From NCBI GenBank assembly GCA_025980665.1, contig JAICXC010000007.1:1-64000 (forward strand): a stretch of DNA of 64,000 nucleotides, in the 5' to 3' direction. The translations under genes and the position numbers were made by a program. A model generated the notes under the pieces. It worked only from the letters and a program-made list of their open reading frames with translations. It did no database searches and was not told the origin of the DNA. Positions within the stretch are counted from its first letter, which is position 1; each line of letters opens with the position of its first letter. The DNA is from Bryobacteraceae bacterium (GTDB lineage: Bacteria; Acidobacteriota; Terriglobia; Bryobacterales; Bryobacteraceae). Shown here in pieces: positions 50,899 through 60,497 of this stretch.

Positions 50899-51735
50899 TT
50901 AAATCGCGCAACGTGCCAGGATCCAAATCTTTTCCCAGGCCGGGACACGGACTCGCTCGCGCAGCACCTCGTATTCCGAATTCGAAATACGCTCCAATAG
51001 CCGTGAGTATATAGCGATCAGGGCTTTAAGCGACGCACGGCTTCGACTGTCGACCAGGTTGGTCAAGGGCTGAGCCTCCTGGTAGTACGCCCGCGCGCGC
51101 TCCGCTTCGAATGCAAGCAGGCTGCGTAACGCGGGTGAAATCGCACCGCCGGCCAGTTCCTTCGGATCCACGCCGAAGCGCGCCAGATCTTCGGCGGGCA
51201 GATAGACGCGGCGGTGTTCGGCGTCTTCGCGCACGTCACGAAGAATGTTGGTCAATTGAAACGCCACGCCGCAGCGTTCGGCTAGCTCGAGCGCGCGCGG
51301 ATCGTCGAAACCGAAAATATGAATGATCGTCAGCCCCACCACGCTCGCGACGTGATAGCAATAGTCGTATAGTTCCTGAAACGTCTGGATCTGACGAGGC
51401 TCTAGATCCGAACTGACGCCGCGAATCATGTCGCGGAAATATTCATGTGGGATGCGGTAGCGCGCGACGGCGTCGGAAAATGCCGGCCAAACAGGATTCG
51501 CAGGCGCCGCGCCGGCGAGCGCCGAATTGAGATCCGCCTGCCAGCGTGCGATGTCCCCTGCGCGGTCGCCCACGCCCTCCGCGTCGCTCAGGTCGTCGCA
51601 GTAGCGCATGAAGGCGTAAATCGCGCACATGGCCTGGCGCTGTGGCCGGGAGAGCAATAGAAACGAGTAGTAGAAGTTCTTGGCCTGTGTGCGCGCCACG
51701 CGCTCGCAGAAGGCGTAGGACTCCTCGATCGTCAT
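50899..51735 (-). CDS. hpnD: Presqualene diphosphate synthase HpnD
   Basis: SFLLLSRPQRQAMCAIYAFMRYCDDLSD...GVAFQLTNILRDVREDAEHRRVYLPAEDLARFG. Confidence 0.88.
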   Translation of the reverse strand: MTIEESYAFCERVARTQAKNFYYSFLLLSRPQRQAMCAIYAFMRYCDDLSDAEGVGDRAGDIARWQADLNSALAGAAPANPVWPAFSDAVARYRIPHEYFRDMIRGVSSDLEPRQIQTFQELYDYCYHVASVVGLTIIHIFGFDDPRALELAERCGVAFQLTNILRDVREDAEHRRVYLPAEDLARFGVDPKELAGGAISPALRSLLAFEAERARAYYQEAQPLTNLVDSRSRASLKALIAIYSRLLERISNSEYEVLRERVRVPAWEKIWILARCAI

Positions 51736-52623
51736 TTAGGCAGCTCGTGAGCCCGCAGCGCGCGAGAATGTCCGCCGTGTGAGAGCGCTTAGCAGCAGCC
51801 CTACCCGTTCGACTTTCGAGATGGCTGGCCGGGACCCGAGCACGTCATAATCCTGGCGCTCGATTTTTTCCAGCACCCGCAGGCCCCCGCGGCTGAATAA
51901 TTCCAGGTCGATGGCCAGACGCCGGTCTACGGAATCCGCCAGCGGAAATCCTTTGACAAAAAGATCGCGCGTGACGTTCACCGCTTCCCGCAACGCCGCG
52001 CGAAAGCGCTGGTCAAACTTGCGCGCGAACAGCGCCTCCAGCGGATAGCCATGGGCTTCGAGCAGATCCAGCGGCAAATACACTCGATCCTTTTTAAGAT
52101 CCACTATGACGTCCTGCCAGAAATTAGCCAGTTGCAGAGCCGTGCAGGTGGCATCGGACAGCACGTGCCGTTCTGCATCGCGATATCCGCACAGCCCCAG
52201 TACGAGGCGTCCCACCGGATTCGCGGAATAGCGGCAGTACTGAAAAAGCTCCTCGAAGTTGCGATAGCGGGTGATGGTTTGATCTTGCTCGAACGCTTTG
52301 ATCAGATCGTCGAACAATGTGACAGGTAAGGAGAATTCGCGAACCGTTCCAGCCAATGCGACAAACACCGGATGCCGGGCCTGGCCTGCGCACATCGCCT
52401 GCAATTCGCCGCGCCACCATGCCAGCAGGCGAAGGCTCTCGGCCGTGTCGCCGATTTCATCACCCAGATCGTCGGCCCAGCGGCAGAACGAATAGATGTT
52501 GTAGAAATCCTGATGCAATCGTTTGGGCAATAGGAGGCTCACGACGTGAAAATTCTCGTAGTGGTGCGTCGCCAGCCAGCGGGTGTAGGCTCGCGCCTCG
52601 TCCGCCGGCCAGACGCGATCCAT
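51736..52623 (-). CDS. hpnC: Squalene synthase-like HpnC
   Basis: HYENFHVVSLLLPKRLHQDFYNIYSFCRWADDLGDEIGD...LQLANFWQDVIVDLKKDRVYLPLDLLEAHGY. Confidence 0.88.
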   Translation of the reverse strand: MDRVWPADEARAYTRWLATHHYENFHVVSLLLPKRLHQDFYNIYSFCRWADDLGDEIGDTAESLRLLAWWRGELQAMCAGQARHPVFVALAGTVREFSLPVTLFDDLIKAFEQDQTITRYRNFEELFQYCRYSANPVGRLVLGLCGYRDAERHVLSDATCTALQLANFWQDVIVDLKKDRVYLPLDLLEAHGYPLEALFARKFDQRFRAALREAVNVTRDLFVKGFPLADSVDRRLAIDLELFSRGGLRVLEKIERQDYDVLGSRPAISKVERVGLLLSALTRRTFSRAAGSRAA

Positions 52624-52678
52624 AGCTTCTGGTGACGCCAGGAATTGAGTGGGATAGAGATGCGTAGAGGGACCTCCT

Positions 52679-53731
52679 CTACGGAATGATGGCGGTTTTG
52701 AGATGGCCGTTGTGGCTCATCAGGTGCTGCATCACTTCCAGCAGATTTGAGAGCGGCTCCACGCGATTCACGAAATCACGGGCCGTCACGCGGCCCCGGC
52801 TGATAATGTCCAGGGCTTGGCGGATCAATGCAGGCGTGTGATGGAAGCTAGCCTTGAGCGTGAGCTCGGAGTAATGCAGCAGGCCGGCATCCACCGGAAC
52901 GTCGGTGCCTTCCGGACAACCGCCAAAGAAATTCACAACGCCTCCGCGGCGCAGCAGCTTCACGGCCAGCTGCCAGACTTCCGGCAGCCCCACGGCTTCG
53001 ATAACCACATCGGCACCGCGTCCGCCGGTCAGTTTGTGGACCGGAGTGATGACGTCGGAGCCTTCCTCATTCAGGACCACTTCGTCCGCGCCCATCCCAG
53101 AGGCGCGATCAAGCTGGGAACGCCGGCGACCGATGGCGATGACACGCGCGTGGTAGACTGCCTTGGCCAGCCGCACGAACATCATCCCGATGGGTCCCAG
53201 TCCGATGACTGCCACGGTATCGCCGGGCTTCACGCCACTCTCTTCCAGGCCGCGCATTACGCACGCCAGAGGCTCCACCAGCGCCGCATCCTGATAGCTG
53301 ACGTGCGCCGGGATCTCATGCATGTTCTTGGCGACGATGCGATTCGGGATGCGGATGTACTCGGCGTAAGCTCCATTGTTGAACATCAGATCTTCGCAGA
53401 GATTTTCCTGGCCGCGCTCGCAGTAGTAACACGCTCCGCAGGGAGCCGAATTTGCGGCCACGACTCGCTGGCCCACGTGGAATCCCGCGACATCGCTACC
53501 CACAGCCGCGATATCCCCGGCCAATTCATGGCCGAACAAGGCCGGTGGACGAATCATCTTCGCATGGTAGCCCCGACGGAACACCTTGACGTCGGTCCCG
53601 CAAGTCAGTGCCGCGCGTACGCGCACCAATACGTCGCCGGGGTCAAGTTTTGGAACCTGCACTCGTTCGATGCGGAGCTGCTCCTTGCCATACAGCACGG
53701 CTGCGCTCATCCGCTGCGTTTCAGGACTCAT
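52679..53731 (-). CDS. Zinc-dependent medium-chain dehydrogenase (MDR 2) in hopanoid operon
   Basis: TCGTDVKVF...GHELAGDIAAVGSDV...CGACYYCERGQENLC...VIGLGPIGMMFVRLAK; ATGA overlap with MDR 1. Confidence 0.88.
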   Translation of the reverse strand: MSPETQRMSAAVLYGKEQLRIERVQVPKLDPGDVLVRVRAALTCGTDVKVFRRGYHAKMIRPPALFGHELAGDIAAVGSDVAGFHVGQRVVAANSAPCGACYYCERGQENLCEDLMFNNGAYAEYIRIPNRIVAKNMHEIPAHVSYQDAALVEPLACVMRGLEESGVKPGDTVAVIGLGPIGMMFVRLAKAVYHARVIAIGRRRSQLDRASGMGADEVVLNEEGSDVITPVHKLTGGRGADVVIEAVGLPEVWQLAVKLLRRGGVVNFFGGCPEGTDVPVDAGLLHYSELTLKASFHHTPALIRQALDIISRGRVTARDFVNRVEPLSNLLEVMQHLMSHNGHLKTAIIP

Positions 53732-54843
53732 TTTTGTGGCTGGACTACTACCTTTAACGATACCTCATCCGGGTGCAGCGCGCGTTCAATCCCAAGGTGA
53801 ATATCGTTTAATGGAACGCGATGAGTGATCAGCTCTTCCACGGCCAGAGCGCCGCTGAAAACCAGTTCCGCGGACTCCTTCTGAAGGTCCACTGACGCGC
53901 TATATGAGCCGAAGATCGCACGTTCCCCCACGCACACATCCGCGCCGGAAACCTCGATGCGCTCCTGATGCGAGGTTTGCGCAAATAACAAGATCCGCGC
54001 TCCTGGCCGCGAGCACGCCACGGCCTGTTGGACGATCCCCGGAGCGGAAGCGGCTACGATCACCAAGTCGGCGCCACGGCCGCCCGTCATGCTCTTCACC
54101 CGCACGTCCAGATCTTCATCGCGAGGAGTAAAAGCTTCCTCGACGCCGAAACTGAGCGCCAACCCGCGGCGGCTGGTCATGGTATCGGTGACGATCACCC
54201 GCGCGCCCGTCCGCACCGCCATCATAGTGAAGATCAGGCCTATGGGCCCTTGTCCCAGCACTGCGATTACGTCTTCCGGCTGGGGATCCACTTGTTTGAA
54301 TCCCTTGAGGCAGGTGTTTACCGGCTCGACAAAACAGGCCTGATCGAAAGTCACGCCGTCTGGAATTTTTTCGACGCCGCGCTCTACGATCCAGTCCATG
54401 ACGCGAACGTATTGCGCAAAGCCGCCGCCCGCGGGCTCAAATCCCGCTGTCACGCCGACTTTCTTGTACACCGGACATTGCGCAAACAACTTGCGCCGGC
54501 AATAGAAACATTCGCCGCATGGGATGTGGTGAAACACGATTACCCGTTCGCCGGGATGAAAACGTTTCACCGCGGAACCCACGGCCGCCACCACGCCTGC
54601 GGTTTCGTGTCCATAAACCCGCGGCGGTTCCAGCAGGTTATAAGCGATCTTCTTCAGATCGGTATGGCAGATGCCGCATGTTTCGACGCGAATCAGGATC
54701 TCTCCCGGCCCGATCTCCGGAACCGGAATCGATTCCACGGCTACCCGCCCCGCGCCGCGGTACACAGCGGCCCTCATGGTTCCGACTGCCTCCGGCAGCG
54801 TCAGCACCGGAGTCCCGGCGATGCTAGTTTTCGCAGTTGGCAA
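53728..54843 (-). CDS. Zinc-dependent medium-chain dehydrogenase (MDR 1) in hopanoid operon
   Basis: CGICHTDLKK...YGHETAGVVAAVGSAV...CGECFYCRRKLFAQCPVYK...VLGQGPIGLIFTMMA; overlaps the hpnG end by 20 nt. Confidence 0.88.
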   Translation of the reverse strand: MPTAKTSIAGTPVLTLPEAVGTMRAAVYRGAGRVAVESIPVPEIGPGEILIRVETCGICHTDLKKIAYNLLEPPRVYGHETAGVVAAVGSAVKRFHPGERVIVFHHIPCGECFYCRRKLFAQCPVYKKVGVTAGFEPAGGGFAQYVRVMDWIVERGVEKIPDGVTFDQACFVEPVNTCLKGFKQVDPQPEDVIAVLGQGPIGLIFTMMAVRTGARVIVTDTMTSRRGLALSFGVEEAFTPRDEDLDVRVKSMTGGRGADLVIVAASAPGIVQQAVACSRPGARILLFAQTSHQERIEVSGADVCVGERAIFGSYSASVDLQKESAELVFSGALAVEELITHRVPLNDIHLGIERALHPDEVSLKVVVQPQK

Positions 54844-55489
54844 GAAACTCTCCTAATCGTTCTGCAGCCCGGCGGCAATCCCGGTCCAGGCGAACCAGCC
54901 GAGGCAAAACCGTGAATGGACGACCCAGAGCGGCGAGCGCAATGCGCGTTCGCTCGAAACGCCCATCCGCGTCACGATAGCGATTGAAATCCAGCGGCAA
55001 ATCGTCCCCCGCAACGTCGGACACTACGCGGACGCAGCCAAACGGCACGTTCCACTCGCGCGCTTTTTGAGCGACTGCGGCCGATTCCATCTCAACCACT
55101 GCCGCGCCGGTGGCGGCCCGCAACTCACATTTTTCCCGGGCTGTGAAGGCGACCCGGTCTACGGATACCACGTCGCCCTGCACAAAGGACGCTTGTAACC
55201 CTTTTGGAACTTCACCCGATACGACGATATCACCAATCCGTAGCGTGGGGTCAAGTGCCCCGCAGAATCCAATGCTCAAGATCCGATCTACGTCCGGTCT
55301 CTGGTTAAGTGCACGCTCCACGAGTCTTGGTCCGGGGCCGTTGGCGATCAGAAACCAGCGGCGGTTTTTCCACGCAGCCTGTCGCGAGAACGCAGCTCCT
55401 CGCCATGGCAGAGCGCTAATATCGCCCGCGCGTTTCAGGATTCCTTCGAATTCGCGTTCTTCCGCACCGACCATGAGCCAGGTAACCAT
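54824..55489 (-). CDS. hpnG: HpnG-type nucleosidase/phosphorylase
   Basis: MVGAEEREFEGILKRAG...LSIGFCGALDPTLRIGDIVVSGEV...AAVVEMESAAVAQKAREWNVPFGCVRVVSDVAGDDLPLDF. Confidence 0.85.
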   Translation of the reverse strand: MVTWLMVGAEEREFEGILKRAGDISALPWRGAAFSRQAAWKNRRWFLIANGPGPRLVERALNQRPDVDRILSIGFCGALDPTLRIGDIVVSGEVPKGLQASFVQGDVVSVDRVAFTAREKCELRAATGAAVVEMESAAVAQKAREWNVPFGCVRVVSDVAGDDLPLDFNRYRDADGRFERTRIALAALGRPFTVLPRLVRLDRDCRRAAERLGEFLANCEN

Positions 55490-55491
55490 CC

Positions 55492-56472
55492 TCAGCAGTA
55501 GCCGTTCTCCTGAAACCAGACTACAGCGCGACGAAGGGCCTCCGCGGCCGGCCCTGGGGAATACCCCAGTTGACGTTTTGCTTTGTCGTGACGAACCCAC
55601 ATCCTTTTGCGCGACATGCGAACTGCGTCCAACGGCGCGCGGGGTTCTTTCCCAGTGACCTCGGCCCACGCGGTGGAGGCGACTCCCGCAGCATACGCGA
55701 CGGCGTAGGGAATCTGCAGCGTCGGCGCTTTCCGTTTCACAATGCCCGCCAGTGTCTCCAGGATTTTCTGGAGCGTCATATTCTCGGAACCCAGGATGTA
55801 TCGTTCTCCCAATATGCCGCGCTCACACGCTGCGAGGTGCCCGCGGGCCACGTCGCGCACGTCTACTACATTCAGCCCGGTATCGACGTAGGCAGGAATG
55901 GCGCCGCGCACGAAATCGACCACGATCTTTCCAGTTGGCGTGGGCTTGAAGTCGTGATCGCCCACAGGCGCCGTAGGGTTCACGATCACCACTGGAAAGC
56001 CCTTTCGCGCAAATTCCAACGCGACTTGTTCCGCCAGGAATTTCGACCGCTTGTAGGGACCTTGCATAGCACTTAGAAACGCCTCACTACGCTCGTCTCC
56101 GATGCCGTCAGGAGTGTCCATCCCGATGCATCCCACCGTGCTGGTGTACACGAATCGCTCGACACCTGCGCGGCGAGCGGCCTCTAGCATCGCTCGGGTA
56201 CCCTCAACATTCGACTTGTACATCTCTTCAGGTTCACGCGTCCACAAACGGTAGTCCGCGGCCACGTGGAAGACCACCGCGCAGCCCTCTACGGCGTGCT
56301 CAAGCGATGCGGCATCGCGCAGGTCACCTTGGGTCGCTGCGATGCCCGGCAACTCTCGCAGCTTTACGGGATCGCGTGCCAAAGCGCGTACCGAATCGCC
56401 ACGTTCGAGCAAGGCGCGGGCCACGTGCCATCCGACGAAGCCGGTGGCTCCGGTGACGAGCGTGGGTTTCAC
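55492..56472 (-). CDS. hpnA: Hopanoid-associated sugar epimerase HpnA
   Basis: LVTGATGFVGWHVARALLERGDSVRALARDP...VFHVAADYRLWTREPEEMYKSNVEGTRAMLEAARRAGVERFVYTSTVG. Confidence 0.92.
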   Translation of the reverse strand: MKPTLVTGATGFVGWHVARALLERGDSVRALARDPVKLRELPGIAATQGDLRDAASLEHAVEGCAVVFHVAADYRLWTREPEEMYKSNVEGTRAMLEAARRAGVERFVYTSTVGCIGMDTPDGIGDERSEAFLSAMQGPYKRSKFLAEQVALEFARKGFPVVIVNPTAPVGDHDFKPTPTGKIVVDFVRGAIPAYVDTGLNVVDVRDVARGHLAACERGILGERYILGSENMTLQKILETLAGIVKRKAPTLQIPYAVAYAAGVASTAWAEVTGKEPRAPLDAVRMSRKRMWVRHDKAKRQLGYSPGPAAEALRRAVVWFQENGYC

Positions 56473-56479
56473 AAAAGCT

Positions 56480-57595
56480 TCAGCCCAACAGCCAACTTAG
56501 CGTCTTGAATGGATCGCTGAGCTTCGCGTTAATGCCGTAAGCCGAGGAAGGTTCGTATCCGCAATGCACCATGCATTGATCGCAGCGCGGATCGTTGCCG
56601 GAACCGTAATTTTCCCACGGGGTCTTGGTCATGAGATCTTCGAAGGTCTCATGATGCGCGTCCGTGATCAGATAACACGGGCCTTTCCAGCCTTTGACGT
56701 TATAGGTCGGGTTGCCCCATGCGGTGCAGGGAAGGTCGCGATCGCCCTTGAGGAAATCCATGTACACGGGCGACGAGACCAGCGGGAAACGCTTGGCCAG
56801 CTTATCGATGTCCTTGAACTTCTCGTAGATGTCCTCGCGCGTCATGAAGATTTCCTGGTCGTTCACCGAGGAATAGCCGTAGGCCGGCGAAATGGTGTGC
56901 CCGTCGACCTTGAACTGCCCGAGGAAAGTGTACAGCTCCTCGATCTCGTTCATATCGGTTTCGCGATACACGGTGGTGTTGGTGAATACTTTGAATCCGT
57001 TCTCCTTGGCGATACGAATCCCTTCGATAGCGGCTTTGAACACGCCCTCGCGCTCCACCGCCAGATCGTGATTCTTCTCCATGCCATCCAGGTGAACATT
57101 CAAAACCAAACCCGCGTCGGGCTTAAATTCCTTAAGCCGCTTGGCGATGAACATGCCGTTGGTGCAGAGTTGAATGTATTTGCCGCGCTTCAGGATTTCC
57201 TGGCAGAGCTGCGGCAGCTCCGGATAGAGAAACGGCTCTCCACCGCAGATCGAAATCATCGGCGCGCCGCACTCGTCGACCGCCTTCAGGCATTGTTCCA
57301 GCGTCAGCCGCGAGCTAATGGAGGTTTCGTATTCGCGAATACGCCCGCAGCCGGTGCAGGTCAAATTGCAGGCGTGCAGCGGCTCGAGCATCATCACCAG
57401 TGGAAAACGCTTGCTCAGCATCGGATGCGGCTTGCGATCCGCGCGCGCCGACGGAATCTGCGCGTGCACGATGCGGAAGGGATTCTTCGCATCCTCGGTA
57501 TGGCCCAGGTTCTTCTGCCACTCGGGGCGCGGCCGCAGCTTGTTTTTGGCGATGTAGGTCGCCATGCTGGCCGCCTGGGAAATCGGAAATCTCAT
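56480..57595 (-). CDS. hpnH: Radical SAM adenosylhopane synthase HpnH
   Basis: LEPLHACNLTCTGCGRIREYE...MISICGGEPFLYPELPQLCQEILKRGKYIQLCTNGMF; CxxxCxxC (CNLTCTGC). Confidence 0.95.
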   Translation of the reverse strand: MRFPISQAASMATYIAKNKLRPRPEWQKNLGHTEDAKNPFRIVHAQIPSARADRKPHPMLSKRFPLVMMLEPLHACNLTCTGCGRIREYETSISSRLTLEQCLKAVDECGAPMISICGGEPFLYPELPQLCQEILKRGKYIQLCTNGMFIAKRLKEFKPDAGLVLNVHLDGMEKNHDLAVEREGVFKAAIEGIRIAKENGFKVFTNTTVYRETDMNEIEELYTFLGQFKVDGHTISPAYGYSSVNDQEIFMTREDIYEKFKDIDKLAKRFPLVSSPVYMDFLKGDRDLPCTAWGNPTYNVKGWKGPCYLITDAHHETFEDLMTKTPWENYGSGNDPRCDQCMVHCGYEPSSAYGINAKLSDPFKTLSWLLG

Positions 57596-59520
57596 GACTG
57601 GGTTGCTCCTCGTGCTTTCCGGTAGGCTGCCAGCGCCAAGACCGGGAAGGAATGCCGGTAAAGATGGTATTGCAGATAAAAGACGCCCGGGAATCCGGTG
57701 CCGGTGGACAAATCCTCTTTCCAGCCGCCTGAACTGCGCTGGGTTTCAATCAGGTATTCGACGCCTTTGTGGAGGCTACTGCTGGTGGTGTCGCCTCCGG
57801 CAATCAACCCTAGTATCGCCCAGGCCGTTTGGGAGGGCGTGCTGTGGTCGGGAGTGAAAGTCTCGTTGTTATAACTGGCGCAACTCTCGCCCCAGCCGCC
57901 ATCGGCATTCTGAATGGAACGCAGCCATTCGCCGGCGCGCAGGATGTAGGCTTCCCGGTCGCTTTCGCCAGAAGCTTGCACTCCGCGCAGTGCCAGGTAA
58001 GTGCCGTAGATGTAATCCACACCCCAGCGCCCGTACCAGCTTCCATCGGATTCTTGAGTCTTTTTGAGGAAGGCGATCCCGCGGCGCACGGCCTCGTGGC
58101 TATTCGGGACGCCGCACGCGGCGAGGGCTTCGAGCACGCGCCCGGTGATGTCCGGACAGGTGGGATCGAGCATGGCGTTGTGATCGGCGAAGGGAACGCT
58201 GCTCAGAAAATTCCAGTTATTATCGACATCGAACGCCGCCCATCCGCCATCCGCGCCTTGCATCGCCAGGAGCCAGTTAACCGCCCGTTTGCGGGCCGCT
58301 TTCTGCGCTTCTGGATCGGAAGCCCTGGATTGCGAGAGGGCCAAAAGAACCTGCGCGGTGTCGTCGATATCGGGATACCATTCGTTGGCAAACTCGAAAT
58401 ACCATCCTGAAGGCTCGACGTTTGGTCGCTTGACGCTCCAATCGCCCTTGTGCCGCACTTCCTTCGTAAGCAGCCAGTCCGCCGCCGGCGTCAGAGTATG
58501 CGCCGGCAGGCATCCCGATTCGCCCAGAACGTGCACCGCGATGGCGGTGTCCCAAACCGGCGAGTAGCAGGGCTGGAAGAAGAAGCCGCGATGATCGTCG
58601 ATCATCAGGTTCATGAACTGGCGCGTGGCTTCCTGTACATCAGGATGATCGGGAGGATACCCGAGCAGGTCCAACGCCATCACCACGTACATCATCGAAG
58701 GGTAAATGGCGCCTAATCCATCGGAATGGCGCGTCCGCGCAAGAATCCATTGCTCCGCGCGCCGAATAGCACGCGTACGCAAACTCCGTGACCCATGCCG
58801 TTCCCACAATTTCAGCAGCCGGTCTGCGACGAAGAAAAAATTGCCCCAGCTCAGGATCTTCTCGCGATCCACGAAAGCCAGCGGGACTCCCGGTACAAAT
58901 AATTCCTCGACATTGAATCCTGCGGGCACTGGCCGGCGCGGATTCATGGAGTGCAGGATCGAGAGCGGCGTGACGATCGCGCGCGTCCAGGAGGACATCT
59001 CGTAGATCAGGTTGCCCGCGAGGTTCAGCTCGGGAGGAATCGACGGCGTGTGCTCACGCGGGTACAGCCCAAACAGACTGAGGTTGATCTTGACGTAGCT
59101 ATTGGCAGATTGCAGGCCGCCCAGGGCAAGGATGCGCTCCCGCAGGCGAACCATATCGGCGTTGCTTGCGTCCACACCGGCCAACTTCAGCGCCACATAC
59201 GCTTTGATACTGGCGCTGACCTCGGAAGGGCCCTTTTCGTAAATGCTAAAACCGCCGTCAGCCAATTGGCGGGCCAGGATGGATCGCACCGCCTTATCGA
59301 CCAGTCCCCGTGTGGGCGGGTTCCAAACTCCGTCCTGGGGTGGATGCCGCCACAGCTCCAGAAGAATGAAGTCCGATTCGAGCGTGGTGTCCGCGGTTAG
59401 CTCGCCGCACCAATAGCCTTCACCGGCCCGCCGGCTGAGAAGATAGTCGGCGGCGCGGCGCAACGTCGCGGACGACGTTGACAGCAGAGTGTCCGCAATT
59501 TGCAGACTAGGACTGCTCAT
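57592..59520 (-). CDS. shc: Squalene-hopene cyclase
   Basis: QW motifs (GADGGWAAFDVDNNW, ESDGSWYGRWGVDYIYGTY, NADGGWGESCASY); DVDN in place of the usual DxDD-type region context needs alignment. Confidence 0.95.
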   Translation of the reverse strand: MSSPSLQIADTLLSTSSATLRRAADYLLSRRAGEGYWCGELTADTTLESDFILLELWRHPPQDGVWNPPTRGLVDKAVRSILARQLADGGFSIYEKGPSEVSASIKAYVALKLAGVDASNADMVRLRERILALGGLQSANSYVKINLSLFGLYPREHTPSIPPELNLAGNLIYEMSSWTRAIVTPLSILHSMNPRRPVPAGFNVEELFVPGVPLAFVDREKILSWGNFFFVADRLLKLWERHGSRSLRTRAIRRAEQWILARTRHSDGLGAIYPSMMYVVMALDLLGYPPDHPDVQEATRQFMNLMIDDHRGFFFQPCYSPVWDTAIAVHVLGESGCLPAHTLTPAADWLLTKEVRHKGDWSVKRPNVEPSGWYFEFANEWYPDIDDTAQVLLALSQSRASDPEAQKAARKRAVNWLLAMQGADGGWAAFDVDNNWNFLSSVPFADHNAMLDPTCPDITGRVLEALAACGVPNSHEAVRRGIAFLKKTQESDGSWYGRWGVDYIYGTYLALRGVQASGESDREAYILRAGEWLRSIQNADGGWGESCASYNNETFTPDHSTPSQTAWAILGLIAGGDTTSSSLHKGVEYLIETQRSSGGWKEDLSTGTGFPGVFYLQYHLYRHSFPVLALAAYRKARGATQS

Positions 59521-60497
59521 ACCCGTGCGACAGTTTGCAATTGCACCGTGCGCGTCAGCTCGGCAGGCAGGTTGAAACGCACGTCCTCTTCTTTGACTTC
59601 CATCTCCTCCAACTGCGCGAAACCTCTTTGCTGAAGAAAATCCACCAGCTGCTCGACCAGGTTCTCGGGCGCCGATGCTCCAGCCGTCACCGCTACCGTT
59701 TGGATATTGTCGAGCCACGGCTGCTGGACCTCGGTCAGATCGTCAACAAGGTATGCTGGCACGCCCATCTTCTCGCAAACTTCCACTAAACGGCGCGAAT
59801 TCGAGCTATTCTGCGAACCCACCACCAGCAGCAGCTCGCACAGTGGAACTACCGCCTTCACTGCTACTTGCCGGTTTTCAGTCGCGTAGCAAATATCCTG
59901 CGCCGCCGGTCCCTGAATCTTGGGGAACTTCTCTTTGAGACGCACCACGATGTCCCGGGTTTCATCCAGGCTCAAGGTGGTCTGCGTGATGAAGGAAACG
60001 CGCTCCGGATCGGCAACCTCCAGGCGGTCTACATCTTCCACGGTCGACACCAGCGCGGTGGCTTCCGGAGCTTCTCCCAGCGTGCCAATCACCTCATCGT
60101 GATCCTTATGGCCGATAAGAACGATGGTGAAGCCCTTACGCGCAAACTTCACCGCTTCCAAATGGACCTTGGTCACTAGAGGGCAGGTGGCATCGATCAC
60201 TTTCAGGCTTCGCTGCCGGGCCTGATTCCGCACTTCGGGTGAGACACCGTGGGCGCTGAAGATGACCCGCGCACCCGCGGGTACTTCCTCCAGCTCCTCG
60301 ACGAAAATGGCTCCCAACGCGCGAAGCTCTTCCACCACGTGGCGGTTGTGGACGATTTCCTTCCGCACGTAGATCGGCGCTCCATACATGTTTAGAGCGA
60401 TCTTCACGACGTCGATGGCGCGTACCACTCCGGCGCAAAAGCCTCGTGGCCGCAACAAGATAATCTTCTTCCCCGCTGCGGACATAGGGGTGGACAT
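59517..60497 (-). CDS. ispH: 4-hydroxy-3-methylbut-2-enyl diphosphate reductase IspH
   Basis: KKIILLRPRGFCAGVVRAIDVVK...VRKEIVHNRHVVEELRALGAIFVEEL...VIFSAHGVSPEVRNQA...VVGSQNSSNSRRLVEV; ATGA overlap with shc. Confidence 0.95.
   Translation of the reverse strand: MSTPMSAAGKKIILLRPRGFCAGVVRAIDVVKIALNMYGAPIYVRKEIVHNRHVVEELRALGAIFVEELEEVPAGARVIFSAHGVSPEVRNQARQRSLKVIDATCPLVTKVHLEAVKFARKGFTIVLIGHKDHDEVIGTLGEAPEATALVSTVEDVDRLEVADPERVSFITQTTLSLDETRDIVVRLKEKFPKIQGPAAQDICYATENRQVAVKAVVPLCELLLVVGSQNSSNSRRLVEVCEKMGVPAYLVDDLTEVQQPWLDNIQTVAVTAGASAPENLVEQLVDFLQQRGFAQLEEMEVKEEDVRFNLPAELTRTVQLQTVARV

Follow-up and report, generated by a model that had tools for sequence, protein, structure and literature searches.

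Hopanoid gene array and its two dehydrogenases

In the 64,000-nucleotide stretch of a Bryobacteraceae genome analysed here (the window), we found that positions 50899-60497 of the minus strand hold one compact array in the order ispH-shc-hpnH-hpnA-hpnG-MDR1-MDR2-hpnC-hpnD. The HMBPP reductase gene ispH (59517-60497; NF002189/TIGR00216, above cut-off) is followed by shc (hpnF), encoding the squalene-hopene cyclase (57592 to about 59520, the start being inferred from an ATGA overlap; TIGR01507, 637 bits), by hpnH (56480-57595; TIGR03470, 415 bits, above cut-off), encoding the radical SAM adenosylhopane synthase, and by hpnA (55492-56472; TIGR03466, 462.7 bits, above cut-off), which codes for a hopanoid-associated SDR (“sugar epimerase”). 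The adenosylhopane nucleosidase/phosphorylase gene hpnG (54824 to about 55489) precedes two genes for zinc-dependent medium-chain dehydrogenases, that is MDR1 (53728-54843; 371 aa, TTG start), predicted to be NAD(H)-linked, and MDR2 (52679-53731; 350 aa), predicted to be NADP(H)-linked. The array closes with hpnC (51736-52623; squalene synthase component; TIGR03464, 347 bits, above cut-off) and the presqualene diphosphate synthase gene hpnD (50899-51735), whose 269.9 bits are just under the TIGR03465 cut-off of 278.6. An ATGA overlap (4 nt) can be read directly at ispH/shc and at MDR1/MDR2, the coordinates give another 4 nt at shc/hpnH, and hpnG and MDR1 overlap by 20 nt if MDR1 starts at the TTG that is preceded by AGGAG. 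Both order and overlaps are as the initial annotation had described them. A promoter scan gave no signal above chance.

With 128 bits against a curated cut-off of 187 (E 3.9e-37), the window HpnG falls short of TIGR03468, as does every HpnG that we sampled from Acidobacteriota and Methylomirabilota, so that hpnG may escape automatic annotation in these phyla. After hpnD, we saw no hpnE between 47711 and 50898, the place of an hpnE-like amine oxidase in close relatives; a plus-strand ORF without Pfam match and an acyltransferase/acyl-ACP ligase-like gene are found there instead.

Both dehydrogenases matched PF08240 (ADH_N) and PF00107 (ADH_zinc_N) above cut-off. The catalytic zinc ligands are C59/H79/E80 and E173 in MDR1 and C44/H68/E69 and E153 in MDR2, and the structural cysteines are C109/C112/C115/C123 and C98/C101/C104/C112, respectively. 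These ligands are invariant in alignments of 15 MDR1 and 18 MDR2 orthologues (an Ala at the catalytic Cys column of MDR2 in the cofactor alignment is an alignment offset, the true ligand being C44 in TCGTD), and the nucleotide motif GxGPIG is present in MDR1 and MDR2 alike. The zinc Cys patterns and GxGxxG site previously claimed for the two proteins were thereby confirmed. AlphaFold2 models (pLDDT 84.2 for MDR1 and 90.5 for MDR2) had mostly zinc polyol/alcohol dehydrogenases as closest folds, and top matches in profile searches include NADP(H) ketose reductase and sorbitol, xylitol and galactitol-1-phosphate dehydrogenases. A substrate of polyol type, as the hopanoid side chain would be, agrees with the modelled fold; this fold is common to the whole superfamily and does not identify a substrate. 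Assignment to a named MDR enzyme (threonine 3-DH, scyllo-inosose 3-DH or sorbitol-type) was rejected, the best NCBIfam equivalog scores being 178 and 158 bits against a cut-off of 450.

Conservation and rearrangement in Acidobacteriota

In the survey of adjacency that had been set beforehand as a refutation test, the arrangement turned out to extend beyond this strain: it is widespread in hopanoid-making lineages of Acidobacteriota and recurs in Methylomirabilota. hpnH was above cut-off in 26 of 119 acidobacterial genomes, and MDR1 (at least 49% identity to the window protein) and MDR2 (at least 52%) were found in the same 15 genomes. Fourteen of these 15 were hpnH-positive, compared to 12 of the 104 others (Fisher p 2e-10, for lineages that are not independent), and MDR1 adjoined hpnG in 11 of the 15. 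The same adjacency is found in culturable Terriglobus and Granulicella, with hpnA-hpnG-MDR1 in Terriglobus roseus DSM 18391. HpnH itself was of two sorts in Acidobacteriota, scoring either 450-558 bits (mainly family f2) or 330-411 bits (the window and others). The former is often encoded far from shc, together with ug3, a gene for about 146 aa (L123:8498-8938 and relatives) that comes after hpnH in acidobacterial, Rokubacteria, Nitrospira and Verrucomicrobia loci.

The acidobacterial association is known in part. Three gene clusters were described in this phylum, hpnA-hpnG-ug1, ug2-hpnC-hpnD-hpnE, and shc-hpnH-ug3 with an isp gene, in which ug2 (~350 aa, often annotated as a Zn-binding alcohol dehydrogenase) lies before hpnC and occurs in all SD1 and SD3 strains and not in Chloracidobacterium; ug1 lacks any description in the text, and both were left without function (Sinninghe Damste et al. 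2017, PMC5462960). Since ug1 after hpnA-hpnG and ug2 before hpnC have the positions of MDR1 and MDR2, these are almost certainly the same genes: MDR2 matches ug2 by position, and MDR1 is probably ug1, judging from its place in T. roseus (L198). That study was confined to Acidobacteria and did not remark on the paired-paralogue nature of the two genes, and no functional assignment of either was found in the open-licence literature. We found no earlier report of the second phylum, the paralogue clades, the cofactor split, the gene-wise partnering after cluster splitting or the co-loss described here.

Rearranged clusters were informative. First, genomes of genus g4 have a split cluster. Both sites were read for G061 and G049, where MDR1 follows hpnG and MDR2 heads hpnC-hpnD elsewhere, with an hpnE-sized ORF next, and in G094, G036, G103 and G112 MDR1 likewise follows hpnG with MDR2 elsewhere. 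Second, three f28 genomes (G037, G085 and G113, loci L129, L131 and L133) have hpnA-MDR1-MDR2-hpnD in a cluster without hpnG; nucleosidase matches elsewhere in G037 and G113 score under every cut-off and resemble futalosine hydrolase/MTA nucleosidase, and their identity as HpnG was rejected. Third, the pair of G066 is located apart. Moreover, G007 (family f2, listed as 100% complete) retains ispH-shc-hpnH, and its genome gave no match for hpnG or hpnA and no close MDR1 or MDR2. Thus, hpnG, hpnA, MDR1 and MDR2 appear to have been lost together, which ties the MDRs to hpnG and hpnA.

G029 (L141) has hpnH, hpnG and hpnA and gave no MDR1 or MDR2 match at E<=1e-30; an in-frame stop interrupts its hpnH, perhaps through an assembly error. 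As a replacement reductase beside hpnG in acidobacteria devoid of the MDRs, we found no candidate common to the loci, the neighbours being type-2 IPP isomerase-, luciferase-like monooxygenase-, PLP decarboxylase- and squalene/phytoene synthase-like in translations read by eye.

The pair in a second phylum

When GTDB genomes were scanned by means of hpnH and 80 loci annotated, hpnG and MDR1 shared a neighbourhood at 19 acidobacterium-like loci (one of which comes from a MAG with another label) and in a single Rokubacteria MAG, L234, whose order is hpnH-ug3-hpnG-hpnA-MDR1-MDR2-ispH. Among 95 Methylomirabilota genomes, 85 had a match to the MDR2 query at E<=1e-50 and 89 an hpnG match. hpnG was at most 9 kb, and mostly about 3 kb, from MDR2 in 56 of the 83 genomes whose best MDR2 place was tabulated, and 52 of 55 second matches adjoin MDR2. 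The Rokubacteria regions that we read have hpnH-ug3-hpnG-hpnA-(prenyl-synthase-like gene)-hpnD-MDR1-MDR2, whereas Methylomirabilis-like genomes (L298, L300 and L302) have the pair located elsewhere. Although MAG contigs may be misbinned, dozens of genomes at 43-49% identity do not represent acidobacterial contamination. Because it recurs in a second phylum, the adjacency is not due to chance. Acidobacterium-like hpn or hpnH-ug3 loci were also seen on MAG contigs labelled Rhodanobacteraceae, Betaproteobacteria, Planctomycetota and Arcobacter (L199, L178, L180, L186 and L216), the labels or binning of which are doubtful.

When 85 sequences were placed in a tree, with four E. coli MDRs for reference, MDR1-type and MDR2-type proteins formed two clades (SH-aLRT 97 and 95, by a quick method without bootstrap, with root and long branches uncertain and the E. 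coli references not a single outgroup), each holding acidobacterial, Rokubacteria, NC10 and Nitrospirota members. By their sequences, MDR1 and MDR2 are therefore two separate ancient paralogue clades. Acidobacterial genomes contain many MDRs, and generic alcohol dehydrogenases might simply have been parked in the operon of one lineage; two distinct clades with the same neighbours in two phyla, invariant zinc sites and retention after rearrangement leave such an accident nearly excluded.

The clades also differ in the residue at the end of beta-2. It is Asp220 in the window MDR1 and Asp or Glu in every hpn-linked MDR1 (NAD-type). The window MDR2 has Gly followed by Arg, and hpn-linked MDR2s have Gly, Ala or Val, mostly then Lys or Arg (NADP-type), with the exception of L129, which has Asp; NC10 and f45/f47 MDR2s also have Asp. 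From this one motif, MDR1 is predicted to be NAD(H)-linked and MDR2 NADP(H)-linked.

Distribution beyond these lineages

None of the 37 hpnH-positive genomes among 299 Pseudomonadota had the MDR pair, and an MDR2-like match at E<=1e-60 was found in only one of the 299, outside those 37. Chloracidobacterium thermophilum makes bacteriohopanetetrol (BHT) derivatives without ug2 (PMC5462960). Together with G029, these absences indicate that C35 hopanoids do not generally depend on the pair. A universal BHT reductase is ruled out by the hpnH-positive Pseudomonadota, and the reduction to BHT proposed for the MDRs cannot be a general one. Moreover, one reduction calls for a single enzyme, yet there are two MDRs, whose predicted cofactors differ, as well as the SDR HpnA; the claim is not supported as it was put.

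In Nitrospirota, a related MDR2 was found in 35 of 148 genomes, and hpnH in 6 of these 35 compared to 62 of the 113 others, a negative association. The neighbours of this pair are variable, apparently housekeeping genes, and hence uninformative as to its function. A sister pair at L307, L311 and L136 lies near hemL-, ResB-like and CcsA-like cytochrome c assembly genes (translations read by eye), a hint of a tetrapyrrole or haem-related role for the non-hopanoid sister pair. In the wider pair family, at least one function lies outside hopanoids.

These distributions bear on a rival reading, in which the targets of the MDRs lie among the isoprenoid/squalene steps, or are a different lipid or cofactor, and regulation is the sole reason for their place in the operon. 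MDR2 stands before hpnC in Acidobacteriaceae, hpnD adjoins the pair in Rokubacteria, and the Nitrospirota sister subfamily, with its unrelated neighbours, largely occurs without hpnH, all of which would agree with such an activity. However, MDR1 remains beside hpnA/hpnG in broken clusters, the MDRs of G007 are gone along with hpnG and hpnA although ispH, shc and hpnH are retained, and most of the nearest folds belong to polyol or alcohol dehydrogenases. We therefore regard an action on the squalene part or on another compound as rather unlikely.

Discussion

In the established pathway, adenosylhopane is the product of HpnH, and its adenine is then taken off by HpnG. The initial annotation had also stated that the following step, from ribosylhopane to BHT, lacks an established gene, and this still held in 2025, when the enzyme was described as “not yet established”, with no obvious candidate around alphaproteobacterial clusters besides hpnA, hpnB, hpnL and hpnM (PMC12583986). 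Given the linkage, the joint loss and the persistence of the associations after rearrangement, it is likely that MDR1 and MDR2 have a hopanoid role, and their substrate is probably the hopanoid side chain. Hence, of the earlier proposal that the MDRs reduce ribosylhopane to BHT or modify the side chain, the hopanoid link is strengthened by linkage and by the loss in G007, while the reductase step is plausible and unproven.

We tentatively propose that MDR1 and MDR2 form a conserved two-enzyme redox module for the ribose-derived C35 hopanoid side chain in Acidobacteriota and Rokubacteria. Once HpnH has made adenosylhopane and HpnG has removed the adenine, a carbonyl of the side chain would most likely be reduced by MDR2 with NADPH; the foremost candidate for this group is that of ribosylhopane in its open-chain aldehyde form, the reduction of which would yield BHT. 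MDR1 would most likely be an NAD-linked dehydrogenase acting on a side-chain hydroxyl, possibly with HpnA. NADPH was reportedly used in the cell-free reduction of ribosylhopane by Bodlenner et al. in 2015. The predicted NAD/NADP split suggests that the two enzymes may run in opposite directions in vivo, MDR1 oxidising and MDR2 reducing, and our best guess ranks MDR2 above MDR1 as the putative ribosylhopane reductase. That MDR2 (or MDR1) has this function in Acidobacteriota and Rokubacteria is possible, if somewhat doubtful.

In favour of the module are the overlapping co-directional genes, the partners kept after cluster splitting (hpnG by MDR1, hpnC by MDR2), and T. roseus DSM 18391, whose hpnA-hpnG-MDR1 cluster goes with 99% tetrafunctionalised hopanoids (PMC5462960). 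Counting against it are the f28 pair, which lies beside hpnA although the cluster has no hpnG, the Asp of L129 at the NADP-type position of an hpn-linked MDR2, the frequent contact of the pair with squalene genes, so that side-chain genes are not its only partners, and the distribution described above (0/37 hpnH-positive Pseudomonadota, G029, and a Nitrospirota sister subfamily negatively associated with hpnH).

A strong rival is that HpnA is the ribosylhopane reductase, as proposed in 2017 (PMC5462960), and that the MDRs make a further lineage-specific change, for example inverting a hydroxyl of the side chain through an NAD-linked oxidation and an NADPH-linked reduction. The NAD/NADP split would suit such a couple, HpnA accompanies hopanoid genes in the tested Cupriavidus, Paraburkholderia and Nitrospira genomes and in Rokubacteria, a wider range than that of the MDRs, and the f28 genomes, with the pair after hpnA and no hpnG in the cluster, fit at least as well. 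On the other hand, cited evidence indicates that hpnA is not required for BHT in Burkholderia cenocepacia, and the gene is missing from Rhodopseudomonas (PMC5462960) and from 6 of 48 hpnH-bearing alphaproteobacteria (PMC12583986). HpnA as the reductase, with a further change made by the MDRs, is on the unlikely side. Quite unlikely is the combination in which MDR2 is the ribosylhopane reductase of Acidobacteriota and Rokubacteria, non-homologous to the Pseudomonadota solution, and MDR1 and HpnA carry out a second, undescribed redox step on the side chain; if true, these two groups would have a diagnostic hopanoid.

BHT is a central hopanoid and a molecular fossil precursor, and its final enzyme had yet to be established in 2025 (PMC12583986). 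Two linked genes in two soil phyla, with culturable relatives, make the missing step open to testing and point to lineage-specific side-chain chemistry.

Comparison with known systems

The redox module proposed here resembles three known systems in part. First, MDR1 and MDR2 have their fold, zinc ligands and structural Cys lobe in common with the polyol dehydrogenase/ketose reductase group (1e3j, 1pl6, 7y9p and 4a2c), at about 22-31% identity, and differ from it by their hopanoid operon context. Second, HpnA (TIGR03466) is encoded by an adjoining gene and is a candidate for the same missing step, but it belongs to the SDR superfamily, has no zinc and is more widely distributed than the MDRs. 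Third, the aminotransferase HpnO known from the literature uses the same ribosylhopane intermediate as the one proposed here; however, it transaminates this compound to aminotriol, whereas MDR2 would reduce it.
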